The position numbers were made by a program, and so were the translations under genes. A model generated the notes under the pieces. That model had not been told where the DNA came from. It searched no databases and saw nothing but the letters and a program-made list of their open reading frames with translations. This document shows, one piece after another, positions 26,853 to 53,545 of a stretch of DNA of 58,250 bases (positions within the stretch are counted from its first letter, which is position 1; each line of letters begins with the position of its first letter). Source of the DNA: Nannochloropsis salina CCMP1776 (taxonomy: Eukaryota; Sar; Eustigmatophyceae; Eustigmatales; Monodopsidaceae); NCBI GenBank assembly GCA_004565275.1, contig SDOX01000166.1:72232-130481 (forward strand), given 5' to 3'.

Positions 26853-28339
26853 TCAATAGTCGTCGTCGGAGTCAATGTCCTGCCAAGAAGCGTGCACAGG
26901 GGAGGAGTGCACGTGCGTGAGGAACAATAACGATCCAGGAAATTGACTGGCACTTTAATCAAGGCCCGCGCACGTCGGGAGATATACAGCCTTGCGGAAA
27001 ACGCGCGGACTGGCCCATCCTTTCATAGTTAATTACCGTCCCCACGCACTCACCCTTCCACTCCCTCTCCCTCCTTTACTCACATCCAAGGGCGCATTCC
27101 CTCGTTTTCGCATAACGCGGAAGAATTCCTCCTCGTTGATCACCCCGTCTTGGTCCCTGTCTGCTTCGTCTGATACACGAAGAGGGAGGGGAGGGGGAAA
27201 GGGTTAGGAAAAGATGAGCAGATGCCTCTTTTTACATGGCCTCCCTCCCGGAAACCCGCCAGACGACATTCTTCCCGTTTTGGAGGAGAAAAAGAAGCGA
27301 GGTGCGGCAGGGGAGGAAGCATATTGACGGGTTCCCATTACAGACACGTTTATATATATATATACATATATGTATATATATAGAGAGAGAGGGAGAGCCC
27401 ATCTCACACACAGAGGGCTGCCTCCTTACCAATCATTTCCTGCAGTTCCTCGTCTGTCAAGTTCTCTCCCAGCTCCGTGGCCACCCGTTTCAGGTTCCGG
27501 AAGGAAATCGCGCCCGTGCCATCGTCGTCAAAGAGGGCAAAAACCTGGAATGCGAGAAAATCGATCAGGACACATGAAAGGAGAGACTCGACGGCCCAGC
27601 CCGTGGGGCCCCCCAGGGTCGGATGGGCCCATGACCAAACCAAAGACAGGTCCCCGGGCCTCAGATCCCTCCGTTCCCCTCTTGCTGGGCGTCTCTCTCA
27701 CCTTTTGAATCTCTTCTCGTTCGTCTCGGTTGGCCACCTTGGGCGCAGCCATGTCCAAGAACTCATCGTAGGTGACCGTGGCCGCCATCTCTTTGTCGAT
27801 GGTTTGGAGAAAGGTGCGGATCTCTGCTTTTTTCACCTGCCGCATCGAGTGGGATGCCGTGGAAAGAAAAGCTTTGACTTTCACTTCCATGGCCTGCCAG
27901 ACCGACATCTATATCTCTTCCTCTTATTCCTGGGCTGTGCGTTTGGAACCCCTGCCCTCGTACCCCCTGTGCTTTTCACCCTCACTGTCCTTAACAACGC
28001 ACCTGGAATCCCAAGGCTCGGAAGGCGGCTTTCAATTCCCTGACGTCGATCGTGCCTTTCCCGTCACTGTCGAAGAGGTTAAAAGCCTCTCGGATCTCCT
28101 CCAGCTCTTCCTCGTCCAAGCCCTGTACAGACGTGGGAACCGAAAAGAACGCTCAGCACTACATTCTCAAACCATACTTTGACGTCGACTTCCTTTCTTT
28201 GTCGGTCATTCCTTTCAAACCCTTTTATTTTCACTTCGGACTATACCTTGCCCTTCGCCCCGGGCTTCGGCCTGCGAGAAGGGGGGCTGCCCAAACCCGC
28301 ACCCTGCCGGAATCGACTGCTGCTGATGCCAGAAGCCAT
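26853..28339 (-). CDS. Centrin (EF-hand protein)
   Basis: A calcium-binding protein of centrosomes, basal bodies and nuclear-pore or repair complexes. Six exons, 28339-28247, 28122-28003, 27836-27702, 27544-27430, 27169-27084 and 26879-26853, all join in phase to 191 residues. A short basic N-terminus precedes four EF-hands. EF1 ([12 protein letters not shown]) and EF4 ([12 protein letters not shown]) have canonical loops. EF2 ([12 protein letters not shown]) and EF3 ([12 protein letters not shown]) lack key ligands and probably bind calcium weakly or not at all. The phrase [20 protein letters not shown] is near-diagnostic for centrins. The last exon is only 27 bases and adds DIDSDDDY. An open extension before exon 3 is better explained as intron, since splicing at GCGGCAG restores the normal LGF-to-helix spacing. 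Confidence 0.92.
27350..27381. repeat. TA-rich palindrome in a centrin intron
   Basis: A run of TA dinucleotides centred on CATATATG reads almost the same on both strands and is followed by a GA run. It lies in the centrin intron between exons 4 and 5 and could form a hairpin. Probably a microsatellite. Confidence 0.7.
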
Positions 28340-39100: not shown

Positions 39101-39484
39101 ATGGGCCATAAACGGTGAAAGCGCTTCTCTGTAATGTCTTTCTACCATGCAACAAAATGTAACAACTCGGTAATTCATACATTGCATCTCACAAACAAAC
39201 ACGATATACACACATGGATTCATTTCGAGCCTTGAGAGCCTCAGTCCTCTTGGCTGTCTGTATATTGACTTAAAGTCGCTGACTGCGGCTTTGTATCCGA
39301 GCCTCATGTAGCGTTAGGACCCGATATGCACATATGGATTCATTTTGAGCCTTGAGAGCCTCGGTCTTTTGAGCTGTTTTACACTTGACTTGATGTCGCT
39401 GACTGCGGCTTTGTATCGGAGTCCTCATGTAGAGTTTGGACCCAAAGTTTGCTTCTTGACACATGTCCTTCAGATTTTTTGATT
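36134..39484. other. 3.3-kb gene-poor AT-rich gap
   Basis: The largest stretch without a supported gene. It lies between the start of the uncharacterised gene and the stop of the calcineurin fusion, both on the minus strand. It contains a TA run at 37468-37489 and the 120-bp tandem duplication at 39202-39441. On the minus strand at about 37.8-39.1 kb several medium-length open stretches with nearby GTAAG/CAG sites follow one another. Their lengths are within what chance gives at this base composition, so I do not call a gene. Confidence 0.4.
39202..39441. repeat. Two-copy 120-bp tandem repeat
   Basis: Copies begin at 39202 (CGATATACA...) and 39322 (CGATATGCA...). They share long identical blocks such as GCCTTGAGAGCCTC and GTCGCTGACTGCGGCTTTGTATC, with some 15-20% divergence overall. 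The pair ends about 45 bases beyond the stop of the calcineurin-type gene, so it probably lies in its 3' region. Confidence 0.82.
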
Positions 39485-42400
39485 TTATCGTACTTTCGCC
39501 CGGGATCTCCGCAAATCACTCAAGACCAAAGAGAACTCCTTCTTTCGGTGCAGTTCTTTCAAGCGAGCAGCAAAGCATATGAAGTCGAGCAAGCCGATTT
39601 TTCCATCTCCATCGCCGTCCAGTAGCCTCACGCATTCTTCCGCCTGGGTCCGGCTTGCCCCTCCGCCACCCACCTCCTCATCCTCTTCCGCGTACCTTTC
39701 CAGCTCCGAAGCTTCTAAAAAATCGTCGCCGTTGTCGTCAAAAAGGGCGAAAATAAGCCGTAAGGTCACAATCTCACCTGCCGTGAAAATGTCGTCGGGT
39801 GGGGCAGCGGAAGAAGCTGTATTGGGCGGGGGGAAAGGGGGTGAAGGAGCTCCGTGCTCCGGGGAGGGTGGACAGCAAAAAGACGATAAGGACAAGTCGG
39901 GCTTGGTCAATGTGTCGGTGCCAGGCGTGGAGGTAATGGGAGGAGGGGCCGGGTCCACCTTTGACCTGCTATTCCTTGACAGGCAGCTGCGTCCAGTATC
40001 CCCGACAACAAGGAGTTCGTCGGTGGTTGAGGAGGAGGTGGGCGAGGAGGGAGGGAAAGGCTTCGAAGGAGATGGCAAAAGGCCGGAAGAGGGGCCAGAG
40101 GCTGGTGGCGTGGGGGCTAGGTGCCTGGGACTACAGGCAGGGAGTGTAGCTTTCAGGGGAGAAAGGGAGGTAGACTCCAAAAATGTCGAAGGGGTCGCCT
40201 GGCATCTCTCCCGGAGCTTTGTCCCGGCCAGAGTGGTTTGATACTGTACATGAGCCTGGCTCCGGGCCTCGATACATTCCAGGAGGTACGAGACGGAGGT
40301 AGTCCCCGGGCGGAGGCTGTGTCGACGATCGGGAATATTCTTGACCGTGCTGTCGTCGTGTTCGGCCTTACCCGCTGGGCCAAAGTGGGCTTTTCTGCCG
40401 TTGATTTCTGGATCGCTGAGGACATTGCCTGGCCCTGTCTTTCTTCGCACTATTCCTGCTTCGCTTCCTCCCTGGTCCTGGCAGTGTCGAAGCACTCCCC
40501 GTTCGAGTCGCGCGCAGACTTCCGCAACCGAGTACGGACGGTGGGCGATTTCCTCCTCCAAAGCACCTGACCCACTGACAGGCCTTTCCCATTTCGCGCC
40601 CTTTTCCTTCCCCTCGTCAGGCATTTTCGCGGCCAAAGTTTCGAGGCAGCGGGCCACGACATCAGGGTGCATTTCATTGATGCCGTCCCGCCGTTGCGCC
40701 AGCCGATAGACAGACTCGCGTCGTGACATGCGCACAGGTCGAAGGGTGCTCCGTTTGATGATTTTCGTGGTGAGAGCCTCGCATTTCCCGGAATTCTCTT
40801 TTCCGCGGCGACATTCTTGCTCGACCTTGCCCGGACGAGCAGCGGCTGGCCCGGCCGTCCGTATTGGAAGGCAGGGGCTACCGGTGATGGTGCTCCTGCT
40901 GTCACTCGGAAGCGTGCTGTCCCTCCTAGGCCTGCGGGTGCTCGCACAGGTAGTATCCGTAGACGGCGACACCTCGTTCATAGCCTCCAGGCTACTGCGC
41001 ATTTTGTTGCGGCCCCGGGCGATTCGTTGGTCCCGATCACGGATTTTGCTGACGACGCTGGTGACATCCCCCCTAGGCTCCGGCACACCTCTGTTCGACA
41101 GAGTCCTTCGGCCTCGACTGTTGATGCCTGGCACGCCTTGGCTGTCGCTGGAAGCTCGCAAGGCGCTTGTTGGGTTTCTTACGAGCTGGTGGAAGGCAGA
41201 TGGCCTGGGCCAAGGACCTTCCGGGCTCGATCCACAACGGGCACCCGGGGCACTCCCCCGTTCTCCTTCCGGCCTGTCTCGGGCTGGCGAAAAGGCACTG
41301 TTGCGCGTGCCGAGTGCGTGGACTGCGATGCTCCTCCCTGGCTCGGAATCTCGGTGCTGCGGGCCCCTGGTATGGTTCTCGCTGCTGGTAATATTTACAG
41401 GAATCGTGGTACGGTTGCTGTCACGGAGGCTTGAGCAGTGGTGGTGCGTGGCTTTCCGTATGTGAGTGTTCTGGGTGCCGTGGACTGCAAAGGACTCGCT
41501 CTTTTCTGTACGTGTGGGGGCAGTCTCCCGGGGCTTCCCTTCCAGATTCCTTCTTTCCGGGATTGCAAACTTTTCACTCCTCTTGCGGCTGTCGACGACT
41601 CGATGGGGCCCAGGCTCGGTTCTCCCATCCACGTCCATCCCACGACCTCCAGTGGTTGACGCCTGGTGCATGATCGTGGCTGGGGTGTGGTGGGGCGTGA
41701 CGTTGCTGCGTCGCGCGACCGTCTTGTCGGGGTTGGAGATATCGTCACCAAAGCCTTCCACGCACTTGGGGCTGCTCCCGTTGACCCGGGTAGAAATGCC
41801 GGAGGCGGACTTTGGCCGGCGAAACATGGGGGGTTTCAAGGAAGGAAAAGCTGCATGGAAAGCGCCAAAGGGCGAACGCGACACGCGTGGCCAAAGATGG
41901 GGCGAGGCTTCGCGTTCGCGCGTGGCGATGTCGGGCTTGGCCTGCCCTACTACTGGATCCCGCGTCTTCCCGCCCCAAACTCTTCTAAACCAGGCGCTGT
42001 GGAACCCTGCGCCCTTTTTTTGCGCTGGTGGCTTGTTGATGCGATTTTGGCGGCTTTGGTCGTCGCTTCTCGGGCTCGGGCCCGCCGATGGGGCCAGGGT
42101 AGGAGGGTTCTCATTGCTCTGGGAACGTGAGGCGAGCTCGGTGAGCGGCGCGCCCGGACGGGCGTCGTTTCCGCGCCATTGCCATAACGAAGGTAGATAG
42201 GCAAGGGCGAGACAGCCAGAAGCTGAGCCATACCCTTCGAATAGCCTCGTTTCCACCATCTCCTCTGCTTCGCCTTCCTTCTCCACTGCGGCCTGCCCCG
42301 TCCCTCCCACGTTTCGCTTCTCTCTCACTTTCCCCTCTTTCTCCCCCGCGTCATCACCACACAAGGCTTTATTGTCTTCAACCGTCGTCCCATCAACGCG

Positions 42401-45307
42401 TGGGCCCGCTTCTTCTTTCCGTTCCCGCATCCTCTCTTCCCTTTCCTCCCCCTCCCCCCGTATTCCCCCGTCGGCAACCCCTCCAGCCCCCCTCCCACAT
42501 GCACCTTTAGGCTGCACACCGGCCTTGCCCACGGGAGCGGCGACGGACCTGTCCATGCTCGGATGATCCTGGTCGCTACCTTTGCTTTCGGTCCCGGTCC
42601 TTTTCATGGGGTGCTCACAGCGTCCTTTCCACAGCCCTCCCAGGGTCGTCCGCCTTGCCTCCTCGACATCGGACGCCTCGCTTCGAACCTCCCTGCAGGC
42701 ATGGCCTGGGTGCCTTGGATGGATGGCGCGGGACGCTTGAGTCGTGGGCGAGGCCGTCAATGATGATGGAGGGGATGTGATGGAATAGGGCCCCACGGGC
42801 TTCGGTATTTGGACGCTCAACTTGCTGCAAGAGGCGCCCGTATTGTTATCAGCCCAAGCGAGACGATCGTCCCTTCTTCCACTCCCGCCCTCGCCCTCTC
42901 CTCCCTCTCTTGCCTCAGGACTTGTTGCTGGAAGTGGAGATGGGTCAAGTGGGGGGGAGGAGGAGGAGGAGAACGAGGGGGAGGAAGAGGGGGAGGAGGC
43001 GCTGGTGGTGGCAGCTCCGCCGTCGCTGGCATCATCTCCTTCCTTCAAATCAACGACACTTTCGATCGAAGATTCCGACACGGAGGAGGCGAATCCCCTC
43101 TGTGAAGAGGAGGGCGACGCCCCCTCTTCATCCCTCTCTCCCTCCTGCCCTCTCTCCCGCCCTCCCTCCTTGGAGGCCAAGACCCCCAACTCGGAGGCCG
43201 CCCTCAGCAGTTCCCTGAACGTCGTCGGCATGTAGGGGCACGTATTCATGATGGCCAGGTGGTGCTCCTGGTGGCGTTGCAGGCGGGCCCAGGACGGGTG
43301 CGAGGAGGCGGTGGGAAGGGCCGAGACGCAGTCAAATTGATGGAAAGTGATTTGGTCGGGCGCGGTGGGGCCGACCTGGAGGAAGGCTCCCTTGTTGCCA
43401 TAGTGGTTGCAGTAGTTCGGGGCGCTGAAGATAGTCACGACGGGAGGCAGGACCCGAGGAGGCAGATGGGAGGCCAGAGGAGGGCAAGGCCGTTCAGGGT
43501 TCGAGGGAGCGGGTGGAGGAGCAATCCCCCTCCCAGGAATGGAGGGCGGGGAAGGAAAAGGCGGGGCCCCATCTCCGCCCGCGGCCGCCGCCTCGACGGA
43601 CCAGGAAAAGTGCTCCGAGTAGCCTTCCTCCTGCACTTGATGGGCTCGGATCAAACACAGGAGATGGTTGTCGTCCAAAAACCGCCGGATCGCCCGGTAC
43701 CCGAAATACACCGAGCAACCCCGCTCCCCGTTCGGTCGCCACTCCACGGCCAGGTACTCTTCCCATGCCCTGGCTACCTGCTCCTTGTCCGTTGCGTCCC
43801 CATTGATGCCGGGGTCCACTTTCTTCTCGTGCCAAGGGTCGGCCCACAGCAAATCGCAGAGGGAACCACTGGCCCCCGGTTCCACGAAACGGTCGATCCG
43901 TTGAATTTCCGCCAACGTCTGGATTTCTGGTGAGATGCCCCCATGGCAGGCAAACAGGCGCCCGTAGTCGGTTTCCACCACCGCACACAGGGGCAAGGAC
44001 TCGAAAACCAGCAAAAATCTGTAGTACACGGGCAGGCCGTATTTTGCCTTGCATTCCTCTTTGAAACCGAAGTAGGTCGTCGCCCCCCGAGTCTCGTGGT
44101 TGCCTCGCAACAAATGGATCAAGTCCGGGTACGCCACCTTCAGGGCCAAAAGGTACAGCAATACTTCACAAGAATAAGCACCGCGGTCTACATAGTCGCC
44201 CAGGAAGAGGAAACGGGATGGATTTGGGGAAAAGGAGCCGGGGGAGGCAGGGGGGAAGGGAGAGGCGTGCTCACGGGTACCCGGCGCTCCTCCAGCCCTG
44301 CCGAACAAATCTAACAGGTCAAAAAATTGTCCGTGCATGTCCCCGACACACGTGACAGGGGCTTGCAGCGTCAAAATGTTGGGTTCGGCCTTCAGTATGT
44401 CGCGTGCCCGGTCCAAAAGCTCAAAAATTTCCCCGAGCTCCATCAGTTGGTGGGAGCGAAAGCGGTCGGCCAAGGCAGGGGGATCCAGAGGTCCCCAGGG
44501 ACTGCGGCAGCTCTGAGGCATGACGGCGGTGCTAGTACTGACAGGAAAGGCAGTGGCGTGGTTTGTCGCTTCTTCTTTAGGTTGTGCTTCTTCGAGACTG
44601 CAGCTCTGGACGGGTTCCCCCTCCCTCGCCATTGCCCGCGGTTCTTTCTTGTTCGTCTCCTGCCCGATCGTACCTTCGCTCTCTTCCTCTTGGCCCACCC
44701 ACATGATCAGCGGATCCTCTCCCGCATGGGACGGGGACCGTAGGCTCAATCTGGAGAGTTTAGCTTGCTGCAGGCGCTTGTGCGCCCGACGAGTAGAAGG
44801 CGTTGCTATCAGGCTCGGGGGGGGGAGAGGTACTGTCAAAGAGCAAGGAACGGGCACGGTGGACGACGGGACGGATTTCAGGAAAGCATTCAAACGACCA
44901 GTGTCCGCACTGGCACGTCTGGGGCTTTTAAATCTGTTCACAGTCGGTAAAGAAGGTGACCCGATCGAAGCCGTGGCCTCCGCGTCTCGAGTAGCAAGGA
45001 CATTGTCGTCATTGCAGTTACTTCTATATTTGTCGGTTTGCGTGATCACCACAGGCGCTCCACCGGGCGGCTCTAAGATTGGTAGACTTGTGATGCCTTC
45101 GTCCAGCACGTGCGTTTGCAGACAGGTGGGGCAGACCAAAGAAAATTCTTTGTCACACAAAGAATCCTGGAGACAACCAGTGCAGCCAACACAACCGCAA
45201 GGGAGCTTACGGGGTGTCAAGAGTTTGACTTCTGATATTGTGTTGTGCGTGACATCCGTGGAAGTCACGGGCCAGGCGAATTCAACGAAGCATATCTCGC
45301 ATGCCAT
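39485..45307 (-). CDS. RING-like / calcineurin-A phosphatase / EF-hand fusion protein
   Basis: A single uninterrupted frame of 1940 residues. Residues 3-70 form a RING-like zinc finger (CEICFVEF, LPCGCVGCTGC, CPTC). About 280-700 is a PPP-family Ser/Thr phosphatase with the metal-binding motifs GDMHGQ, GDYVDRG, RGNHE and HGG. It is closest to calcineurin A: FFDLLDLF, FKEECKAKYG, RFVEP then CDLLWADP, RAHQVQEEGY, IFSAPNYCNHYGNKGAF. An insertion of about 40 Pro-rich residues precedes IFSAPN. A disordered, Ser/Arg-rich linker of about 1100 residues follows, with basophilic sites such as RRDST and RRESV. Near residues 1850-1910 there are two EF-hands (DDNGDDFLEASE and DGDGDGKIGLLD). Calcium control may thus be built in rather than supplied by a separate calcineurin B. 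PPEF/RdgC enzymes also end in EF-hands, but their catalytic domain differs. Confidence 0.88.
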   Translation of the reverse strand: MACEICFVEFAWPVTSTDVTHNTISEVKLLTPRKLPCGCVGCTGCLQDSLCDKEFSLVCPTCLQTHVLDEGITSLPILEPPGGAPVVITQTDKYRSNCNDDNVLATRDAEATASIGSPSLPTVNRFKSPRRASADTGRLNAFLKSVPSSTVPVPCSLTVPLPPPSLIATPSTRRAHKRLQQAKLSRLSLRSPSHAGEDPLIMWVGQEEESEGTIGQETNKKEPRAMAREGEPVQSCSLEEAQPKEEATNHATAFPVSTSTAVMPQSCRSPWGPLDPPALADRFRSHQLMELGEIFELLDRARDILKAEPNILTLQAPVTCVGDMHGQFFDLLDLFGRAGGAPGTREHASPFPPASPGSFSPNPSRFLFLGDYVDRGAYSCEVLLYLLALKVAYPDLIHLLRGNHETRGATTYFGFKEECKAKYGLPVYYRFLLVFESLPLCAVVETDYGRLFACHGGISPEIQTLAEIQRIDRFVEPGASGSLCDLLWADPWHEKKVDPGINGDATDKEQVARAWEEYLAVEWRPNGERGCSVYFGYRAIRRFLDDNHLLCLIRAHQVQEEGYSEHFSWSVEAAAAGGDGAPPFPSPPSIPGRGIAPPPAPSNPERPCPPLASHLPPRVLPPVVTIFSAPNYCNHYGNKGAFLQVGPTAPDQITFHQFDCVSALPTASSHPSWARLQRHQEHHLAIMNTCPYMPTTFRELLRAASELGVLASKEGGRERGQEGERDEEGASPSSSQRGFASSVSESSIESVVDLKEGDDASDGGAATTSASSPSSSPSFSSSSSPPLDPSPLPATSPEAREGGEGEGGSGRRDDRLAWADNNTGASCSKLSVQIPKPVGPYSITSPPSSLTASPTTQASRAIHPRHPGHACREVRSEASDVEEARRTTLGGLWKGRCEHPMKRTGTESKGSDQDHPSMDRSVAAPVGKAGVQPKGACGRGAGGVADGGIRGEGEEREERMRERKEEAGPRVDGTTVEDNKALCGDDAGEKEGKVREKRNVGGTGQAAVEKEGEAEEMVETRLFEGYGSASGCLALAYLPSLWQWRGNDARPGAPLTELASRSQSNENPPTLAPSAGPSPRSDDQSRQNRINKPPAQKKGAGFHSAWFRRVWGGKTRDPVVGQAKPDIATREREASPHLWPRVSRSPFGAFHAAFPSLKPPMFRRPKSASGISTRVNGSSPKCVEGFGDDISNPDKTVARRSNVTPHHTPATIMHQASTTGGRGMDVDGRTEPGPHRVVDSRKRSEKFAIPERRNLEGKPRETAPTRTEKSESFAVHGTQNTHIRKATHHHCSSLRDSNRTTIPVNITSSENHTRGPQHRDSEPGRSIAVHALGTRNSAFSPARDRPEGERGSAPGARCGSSPEGPWPRPSAFHQLVRNPTSALRASSDSQGVPGINSRGRRTLSNRGVPEPRGDVTSVVSKIRDRDQRIARGRNKMRSSLEAMNEVSPSTDTTCASTRRPRRDSTLPSDSRSTITGSPCLPIRTAGPAAARPGKVEQECRRGKENSGKCEALTTKIIKRSTLRPVRMSRRESVYRLAQRRDGINEMHPDVVARCLETLAAKMPDEGKEKGAKWERPVSGSGALEEEIAHRPYSVAEVCARLERGVLRHCQDQGGSEAGIVRRKTGPGNVLSDPEINGRKAHFGPAGKAEHDDSTVKNIPDRRHSLRPGTTSVSYLLECIEARSQAHVQYQTTLAGTKLRERCQATPSTFLESTSLSPLKATLPACSPRHLAPTPPASGPSSGLLPSPSKPFPPSSPTSSSTTDELLVVGDTGRSCLSRNSRSKVDPAPPPITSTPGTDTLTKPDLSLSSFCCPPSPEHGAPSPPFPPPNTASSAAPPDDIFTAGEIVTLRLIFALFDDNGDDFLEASELERYAEEDEEVGGGGASRTQAEECVRLLDGDGDGKIGLLDFICFAARLKELHRKKEFSLVLSDLRRSRAKVR

Positions 45308-51447: not shown

Positions 51448-53545
51448 TCACCTCTTCCACCCGGGCAACAAGACCACCATCATAGTCATGTTGTCGCAGC
51501 CCACGCCGTCGCTGTCCCCGCCCATCTCCTTGTCGCAACACCGGTCGCAAACCGCCTCGCACACGGCGGAGAGTCGCCCCTCTTCCCCGCCTTCCCGGAG
51601 GCCCGTCCGCACCATGTCCACCACCTCCTGACTGCTCAACACATTCCAAATACCATCGCATGCCAGCACGAAAAATTCGTCCTCCCCCCTGCGCACGCTT
51701 TCAACCCGTACATCCGGGTCGGCGCTGATCATCTGCTTCTCGGCGGGGAGGCCTGCATGTTGTTTGTAGGTCAAGTCCCCAATGGCCCGGGACAAATTCA
51801 AATTCCCTTCCACCCGCCCGTCTTCCGACACGCTTCCCCCCGCCTCTTCGATGCGTGCCTTCTCCTCGGCATTTTCCGGCTTGTGGTCGCAAGACAGGTC
51901 CACGGCTTTCCCCTGGCGACTCAACACGCACCGGGAATCCCCCGCGTTCGCCACCACCAACCGCCCGCCCTCCCTCCCGCCCTCCTTCCCTTCCTCGTAG
52001 ACTACCACCACGGCCGTGCAGCCCGAATCATAACCTGGACGTTGTCGCAGCACCAAATCTTTCATCCGGTGAAAGTTAATGCTGCGGATCGCTTCCTCCT
52101 CCAGCATCATCTCCCCTTCCTCCTCCCCTTCCTCCTCCTCCTCCTCCTCCTCCTCTTCCTCTTCTTCCTCCTCATCTTTCAGCAGGGCCGCTGTCTCTAA
52201 ACTGCTGCTGCTACTCGTGCTACTATCGGCATATGAGGCCGTGACGGAGGCGTTCGCCATTTTGGCTGTCTCAGGGGGAGGGCCTGAGGACCCCTCTGCC
52301 GCTCGCTTCTTATTCATCATCCCTCCAGCCAGGTCAAATACCTCCTCCCCTCCCTTGCTACCCCCGTTCGACGCACATTCCTTCACACACATCCCTGCCT
52401 CCATGACTTCCCCTCCTCCTTCCCCCCGCCGACGCTTTTTCCTCCCTGCCGCCCCAACCGCGGGCGATGCCCGCTTCTCCTCCTCTCCCTGCTCCTCCAT
52501 CCCCTCCTCATTCGATAGGACCACCCCCTTTCTTCCTCCTCTTCGACCACAACCACCCCTTCCTCCTCCTCCTCCTCCTCCTCCTCGTCCACCTCCTCCT
52601 CCCCGCCCCGGCCTTTCTGCTCCCCTTCTTCCTCCTCCCTCCCCCCCTCCCCCTCCTCCTCCCCGCCCTCCTCTTCGTCCCCCGCCTGTCCCCTCCTCCA
52701 CGCTTCCTTGACGTAGGCCCGGATGGACCCCACCGATAATCCCGTCTGTACCGCTACCTCCTCCAGGCTCACCTCCGGCTCCGGCCTCTTCCCCCCTTCC
52801 CGCTCCTCCCGCAACATCTCCTGCAGCTCCTCCTGCCCTTCCTTCCCCGCCAGCATGCCGTCCAGCCGCAAGAAAGCCTCCTTCAAAGCCCCTTGGACGT
52901 CCCTCCCTCCCTTCCCTTCCTCCCGCTTCCCTCCTTTCCACGCCTGGGACGTGACCAAGACGTGCTCCAAGTGCTTCGCGCAATAATTCGCCACCTCCGA
53001 CCCCCCATGCCCGTCGAAGACCCCAAACAGGGCCGTCGGGCCTTTCCTCTCCTTCTCCCCCTCCTTCATCACCCGCTCCCCCTTCTCTTCCCTCCCATTC
53101 CTGTCCACTTGCCCCTCTTCCTCCTCTTCCTCGTCCTCCTCCAAGCAAACTCGGGCCAGGTGGGCATCTTCCATCTTCACCCGCCATCCTTGCATGGCCG
53201 TAACCCCGAAACGCAAGCCATTGGGACGCGGATTCTCCCCTGAGTAAGGAAACATTCGTGTCAAGGAGCGTGGGGAAGAAATGAGAGAGCATGGTAAACG
53301 AGGGGACGCGCACGAGCAACTAGCAAAAGCTACTGCCTCATAAAGCTGCAGGCTTTCGCCCGGTGCAACCCAAGCGTGCCCCGACATAAGGGTTGAAGAA
53401 CAACACGACATGAGAGGCACACTCCCTCCACGGAACGAGCCAGGTTATCGAAGAAAGGGAGAGGATGGTGCGTGGGCTGGGAGGAAGAGCACGCACCGTC
53501 TTGAGACTCTTTTTCCGTCACGGGCGCCGAAAGATAAGCACCCAT
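51448..53545 (-). CDS. PP2C-type protein phosphatase (PPM family)
   Basis: A metal-dependent Ser/Thr phosphatase. Exon 1, 53545-53497, encodes MGAYLSAPVTEKESQD. The Gly-2 and following residues look like an N-myristoylation site, so membrane attachment is likely. Exon 2 starts at 53239 and continues in phase with GENPRPNGLRFGVTAMQGWR. PP2C motifs: MQGWRVKMEDAH, LFGVFDGHGGSEVANY, GYDSGCTAVVVV, LVVANAGDSRCVLSR, LSCDHKP, LNLSRAIGDLTYK, DEFFVLACDGIWNVLS, and GCDNMTMMVVLL. Between VFDGHGG and GYDSGCTA is an acidic and Ser-rich insertion of over 200 residues. Within it, around 52490-52700, the frame changes inside a purine tract. A short intron or a repeat-length indel could do this; I cannot decide, so residue counts beyond it are uncertain. 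Confidence 0.87.

Follow-up and report, generated by a model that had tools for sequence, protein, structure and literature searches.

Among calcium-activated phosphatases, calcineurin is the textbook case, and its need for calcineurin B counts as a defining trait. Can a phosphatase of this catalytic type carry a calcium sensor in its own chain? The question is raised by a reading frame of Nannochloropsis salina CCMP1776, which lies at positions 39485..45307 on the minus strand of the window, that is, the whole stretch of 58,250 nucleotides that was analysed (contig SDOX01000166.1). The frame starts with an ATG at 45307 and encodes 1940 amino acids, in which a RING-like finger, a phosphatase domain, a long linker and a pair of EF-hands follow one another. 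In the initial annotation, the product was considered to be a self-contained calcium-regulated phosphatase that may also recruit ubiquitin machinery. The catalytic type, the in-frame EF-hands and the relation of the finger to RING domains are supported by the present analysis; the basophilic phosphorylation sites that accompanied that proposal are not. The domain anatomy of the protein is well supported, and from it we infer the mechanism of calcium control. The probability that the product is a single-chain phosphatase of calcineurin A type under the control of calcium, with built-in EF-hands in place of calcineurin B, is put at about 0.5.

The single open frame claimed at the outset is real by the measure of chance, because it extends over 1955 codons from stop to stop, with no stop in the 1940 codons of the protein, and 200 Markov-1 sequences of equal length contained stop-free runs of 393 codons at most. 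Within residues 1101-1840 of the linker, where 16.2 stops are expected per frame (1000 simulations, minimum 5), this frame contains none. Codon preference favored the sense frame in 13 of the 20 segments of 100 codons into which the gene was divided, as it did in 44 of 65 segments from ten Pfam-supported control frames, each of which was scored with itself left out and one of which, the fucosyltransferase frame, was used after its first 300 bases had been dropped. An earlier, smaller test with three training genes placed the sense frame on top in 12 of 20 segments, and the overall codon score of the gene is near that of the control frames. The codon evidence is weak at residues 1101-1800 (sense frame best in two of seven segments), and preference for the sense frame is absent at residues 101-200. 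Since the best frame scores of 16 flank pieces, which are rough controls and possibly partly coding, range from -0.02 to +0.16 and overlap those of the weak coding segments, the score discriminates poorly and single segments prove little.

The catalytic domain occupies residues 289-664, approximately (43316..44443, minus strand). Pfam Metallophos matched the full protein at residues 317-559 (E 2e-31), and GDMHG (322), GDYVDRG (370), RGNHE (401), CHGG (454), RGCS (529), RAH (554) and SAPNY (628), which we take to be the PPP catalytic motifs, were all located, so that the set of metal and active-site motifs is complete. The top PDB matches are calcineurin A, at E about 1e-57 where the chain has a single domain, and PP1 follows from E 1.6e-47, approximately ten orders of magnitude behind. 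A complete PPP domain of calcineurin-A style, as originally described, is therefore present. It shares 136 of 283 aligned residues (48%) with human calcineurin A, and the same alignment reveals two inserts on the minus strand, one rich in Pro and Ser at about residues 344-363 (44219..44278) and one rich in Pro at about residues 576-617 (43457..43582), 60% of which is P, S, T, G or Q. AlphaFold2 run without an alignment gave a pLDDT of 41 for residues 1-80 and 35 for residues 262-740; because confidence is low even on the certain PPP domain, neither model counts for or against any reading.

Phylogenetic analysis places the domain with calcineurin A and not with PPEF, in agreement with the initial annotation. 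The tree had 14 rows, namely the window protein, seven rows from its own genome (PP1, PP4, PP5, PP6, PPEF and two divergent PPPs) and six derived from PDB (PP1, PP2A, PP5, BSU1 and two calcineurin A); the PP2A (L048), second PP1 (L026) and third PP1 (L078) of the genome were left out. The labels PP2A, PP4, PP6 and third PP1 for genes of this genome, and "human" and "fungal" for PDB rows, are our own presumptive assignments, and the best PDB match of the L025 row is PP2A. Support for placing the window protein beside calcineurin A, which has two rows only, is 97/96, or 99/96 when the two divergent PPP rows are removed. The protein lies outside the calcineurin A pair on a long branch (0.94), one that was marked as long in the second tree. 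Approximately unbiased (AU) tests rejected its grouping with PPEF (p-AU 0.0005), with PP1 (p-AU 0.011) and, most mildly of the three, with PPEF and PP5 together (p-AU 0.033). Judged from these sequence comparisons, the catalytic domain is a member of the PP2B (calcineurin A) clade.

At the other end of the frame, the EF-hand pair covers residues 1849-1912 (39572..39763, minus strand), with loops at 1857-1868 and 1897-1908. EF-hand_7 matched this region in the full protein with E 4.8e-7 and 30.5 bits against a cut-off of 30, and in the C-terminal fragment alone with E 8.6e-9 and 36.1 bits; the last hundred residues matched calmodulin with E 1.2e-8. The two EF-hand loops predicted at the end of the frame are thus confirmed, in the same frame as the phosphatase. 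The loops are DDNGDDFLEASE and DGDGDGKIGLLD. By direct reading, the first is near canonical, and the second has Asp instead of Glu at position 12 and keeps its remaining ligands. Such an Asp closing an EF loop lowers calcium affinity. Calcium binding by the pair is likely.

The linker between phosphatase and EF-hands (residues 716-1840; 39788..43162, minus strand) is mostly of disordered composition and measures about 1130 residues up to the EF-hands, in line with the previous estimate of about 1100. The Uversky score, based on charge and hydropathy, is negative at residues 716-1650 and slightly positive at 1651-1840, and no Pfam family was matched in the linker at E<=5. The many basophilic phosphosites attributed to it were not found as an excess, the R-x-x-S/T pattern occurring 19 times against 21.9 in shuffles; R-R/K-x-S/T is mildly enriched (7 against 3.1, with 33 of 1000 shuffles reaching 7). 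The elements by which human calcineurin A is controlled, namely the B-binding helix, the calmodulin site and the autoinhibitor, were not significantly detected here. A candidate remnant of the calcineurin-B-binding helix at residues 690-707 (43187..43240, minus strand), which follows HPxW at residue 670, appears in global alignment only; in the local test, 121 of 2000 shuffles reached the score and only HPxW was picked. The human calmodulin-binding segment aligned to the linker was equaled by 318 of 2000 shuffles and the human autoinhibitory segment by 1562 of 2000, both tests having uncertain power as they used the human segment only; for the whole human calcineurin tail the count was 1317 of 2000. 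The stretch RRDGINEMHP near residue 1540, considered by eye as an autoinhibitor on account of LDRINERMPP, was rejected, as local alignment did not pick it.

The assembly of the same genome (26.5 Mb, 103 contigs) was searched for partners and paralogs. Metallophos has 23 matches in it, and the PPP genes that could be typed are the window gene, PPEF (L019), PP5 (L024), three PP1 (L023, L026 and L078), the PP2A group (L048, L025 and L020), the Bsu1-like L021 and the divergent L022. Human calcineurin A gave 32 matches at E<=1, among which the window gene ranked first, and no second gene of calcineurin A type was found by this search or among the typed PPP genes; L027 and L028, both from the Metallophos list, did not match calcineurin A. 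Outside the typed set are C1:591855 (calcineurin A match with E 0.002 and 31%), which is the sole Metallophos place beyond that set to match calcineurin A as well, C68:55746 (E 0.02) and a PP2A-type copy on C13. The PP2A-type matches C13:1192-1636 and C66:63357-63801 have equal scores and spacing, and represent a duplicate or an assembly overlap. The Bsu1-like PPP (L021:1-3149 on C42; nearest BSU1 at 85/84) is split over introns, and its first frame, in which the PPP begins, also matches a histidine phosphatase (E 6e-7) and has, by reading, an EF-like stretch, both of which may belong to one gene with the PPP. The divergent PPP (L022:2446-4080 on C70), also nearest to BSU1, has a weakly Sec2p-like start and a very long branch in the tree.

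Human calcineurin B gave 12 matches at E<=1 in the assembly, the best of which (47.8 bits, 31% identity) lies in a kinase frame. The three best are in kinase frames, two identified by reading and one by Pfam; two are in calmodulin, two in a calmodulin-like gene, two in PPEF, and the remaining three are weak and lie in untyped frames of 313, 862 and 3965 amino acids. Proteasome-family matches at approximately 22 places and chaperonin matches at approximately 11, by our own count, indicate that these families are well filled and speak against gross incompleteness of the assembly. The search supports, but does not prove, that the genome lacks calcineurin B, as the gene may lie in missed sequence or be very divergent. 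Calcipressin (PF04847) was not found in the genome either, an absence that carries no weight because its control gave no match anywhere. Because neither a separate calcineurin B nor a second calcineurin A was found, a self-contained enzyme is likelier than an extra copy, and the enzyme may have taken the calcium sensor into its own chain.

At the N-terminus, putative zinc ligands C3, C6, C37, C39, C42, C45, C59 and C62 define a RING-like finger at residues 3-62 (45122..45301, minus strand). The N-terminal RING-like finger of the initial annotation stands as to its Cys spacing, since the groups C-x2-C, C-x-C, C-x2-C and C-x2-C have the spacing of a RING and phmmer matched residues 1-75 to the TRIM2 RING (E 3.8e-4), and falls short as to the Pfam cut-offs: the RING models gave E 0.07-0.09 with the full protein, and the two best gave E 0.001-0.002 with residues 1-80, still below cut-off. 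Shuffling of residues 1-75 reproduced the eight-ligand pattern 30 times in 100,000 trials, and 2000 shuffles of the complete protein never did so. In the stretch aligned with TRIM2, the likeness reads PRKLPC..C..CLQ....CPTC.QT.L. Compared with TRIM-type RINGs, the finger has a first loop of 30 residues, has eight Cys instead of C3HC4, the usual His ligand being replaced by Cys, and lacks the linchpin Arg, with CPTCL in place of the CPVCR of TRIM2. The linchpin Arg follows the last ligand, and its loss weakens E2-ubiquitin activation. We read the finger as RING-related on the strength of this pattern, and the two departures, in the His ligand and the linchpin Arg, make ubiquitin ligase activity doubtful. 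The genome contains no further match to the finger at E<=1.

Several other explanations of the locus have to be weighed. Because a PPP domain followed by C-terminal EF-hands is the order found in PPEF, the protein could belong to PPEF/RdgC and have a catalytic domain that has diverged, but this identity is rejected by the tree and the AU test, and a true PPEF already exists in the genome (L019:2330-5296 on C2), with CAP-Gly (E 7e-15), a PPP domain and several EF-hands; it is accordingly so improbable that it can practically be set aside. The same PPEF bears on the unlikely case that the frame does not correspond to a single mature protein and that introns or alternative starts or ends split the finger, the phosphatase and the EF-hands from one another. 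Other PPP genes of this genome have introns, the codon preference lapses at residues 101-200 and weakens at 1101-1800, the first in-frame Met downstream of M1 is, by direct reading, residue 202, and GTRAG occurs eight times in the frame, all of which would suit a split gene. Yet GTRAGT does not occur on the sense strand of the frame, the lack of stops and the overall codon score speak for continuous coding, and PPEF likewise keeps its domains in one uninterrupted frame of 988 amino acids.

Acceptance of the frame as one protein leaves the role of its EF-hands to be considered. They may not control catalysis, serving instead as a structural or targeting module of low calcium affinity or with bound magnesium, and the phosphatase would then be constitutive, or its location, set by the finger and the linker, would control it; this is a serious alternative, although a minority one. 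The length of the linker that separates them from the phosphatase, the terminal Asp of loop 2 and the lack of a detectable autoinhibitor or a clear B-binding helix are consistent with it, and degenerate C-terminal EF-hands without calcium binding are described for kinetoplastid PPEF in the accessible part of PMC1885993. By contrast, loop 1 is near canonical and all ligands of loop 2 but the last are retained, and Plasmodium PP7, which also has C-terminal EF-hands, is reported as calcium-dependent in the accessible part of PMC11559042. It is rather improbable that calcium control is exerted in trans, with the EF-hands secondary, by calmodulin or an undetected, divergent calcineurin B that binds the post-catalytic region or the linker. 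The genome encodes calmodulin in two pieces, with 94% and 91% identity, and HPxW and a short helix-like stretch persist after the catalytic domain; on the other hand, the human calmodulin-binding segment is insignificant in the linker, and calcineurin B was not found in the assembly.

In the preferred reading, that of a single-chain phosphatase with its own sensor, calcium would bind the built-in EF-hand pair, which would reach back across the flexible linker and, once bound, relieve inhibition or stabilize the post-catalytic region. The pair would thus take on in cis what is elsewhere the task of calcineurin B in trans, and the RING-like finger and the linker may form a platform for docking or targeting, which is a safer reading of them than that of an active ubiquitin ligase. 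Against the cis model are the B-binding helix, which is at best weakly kept, the autoinhibitor that was not found, the Asp of EF loop 2, the weak codon stretches, the long branch in the tree and the representation of calcineurin A by two rows only. As to its origin, it is possible, and we propose it tentatively, that calcineurin B was lost, that calcium control passed to a short EF-hand pair joined to the C-terminal end of calcineurin A, and that the N-terminal RING-like finger couples the enzyme to ubiquitin or to other partners.

The protein can be compared with several known systems. With the calcineurin A/B holoenzyme it shares the catalytic type and clade and the RGCS and HPxW motifs, and it differs in having its EF-hands in cis, a RING-like N-terminus, two Pro-rich inserts and the long linker; in addition, the NIR stretch of calcineurin A, which we assume to be part of the PxIxIT groove, reads TFH. 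PPEF, RdgC and protist PP7 also have a PPP domain and then C-terminal EF-hands in one chain, but they belong to another catalytic clade and have no RING, and the PPEF of this genome has a shorter linker, CAP-Gly and several EF-hand pairs. CAP-Gly is reported on Toxoplasma PP7 in the accessible part of PMC8785970, and its presence on PPEF here is therefore not new. Bsu1-type phosphatases with EF-hands, including one in Nannochloropsis gaditana, and flexible accessory domains are described in the available portion of PMC8249667. These resemble the window gene as a PPP with EF-hands outside the PPEF clade in a stramenopile alga, but their catalytic clade is Bsu1 and not calcineurin A; by its description, the reported phosphatase probably corresponds to L021 and not to the window gene. 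The apicomplexan EFPP, compared by description only, is likewise a large PPP with an EF-hand motif, of 218 kDa in Toxoplasma, and the accessible part of PMC8785970 contains no RING or calcineurin-A assignment for it.

According to the accessible text of PMC7016017, calcineurin A was present in the eukaryote ancestor and was lost in green algae and land plants, and calcineurin B is of separate origin; in another stramenopile, Phytophthora infestans, nine genes are termed calcineurin (PMC5322657, in the part available). The window gene is not mentioned in the accessible part of PMC7554720, and searches of open-access papers turned up none that describes EF-hands or a RING attached to a catalytic domain of calcineurin-A type, which is weak evidence of novelty. 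In a collection of prokaryote contigs, the whole protein had 16 pattern matches, and in a collection of viral contigs, the catalytic domain had 6, none of which was confirmed in either case; as these collections hold prokaryotes and viruses, they do not address relatives in other algae. In architecture, we regard the gene as a new form of calcineurin A whose mechanism is unproven but testable; to PPEF and the Bsu1 phosphatases with EF-hands that are in print, it would add another PPP clade combined with such hands. Under the tentative origin given above, calcium control would have been independently re-invented on a PP2B catalytic domain. A catalytic chain with its own EF-hands, in a genome where the partner gene was not found, makes it testable whether two EF-hands in cis can replace a subunit with four, and which inhibitory element they would then act on.

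Three minor features of the window remain to be recorded. Directly beyond the stop codon of the phosphatase gene, at 39200-39440, two similar stretches of approximately 100 bases were noticed by eye. A PP2C phosphatase is encoded in two overlapping frames on the minus strand at 51451-53444, about 6 kb from the phosphatase gene, and a small calmodulin-like EF-hand gene lies in pieces on the minus strand at 27428-28101.
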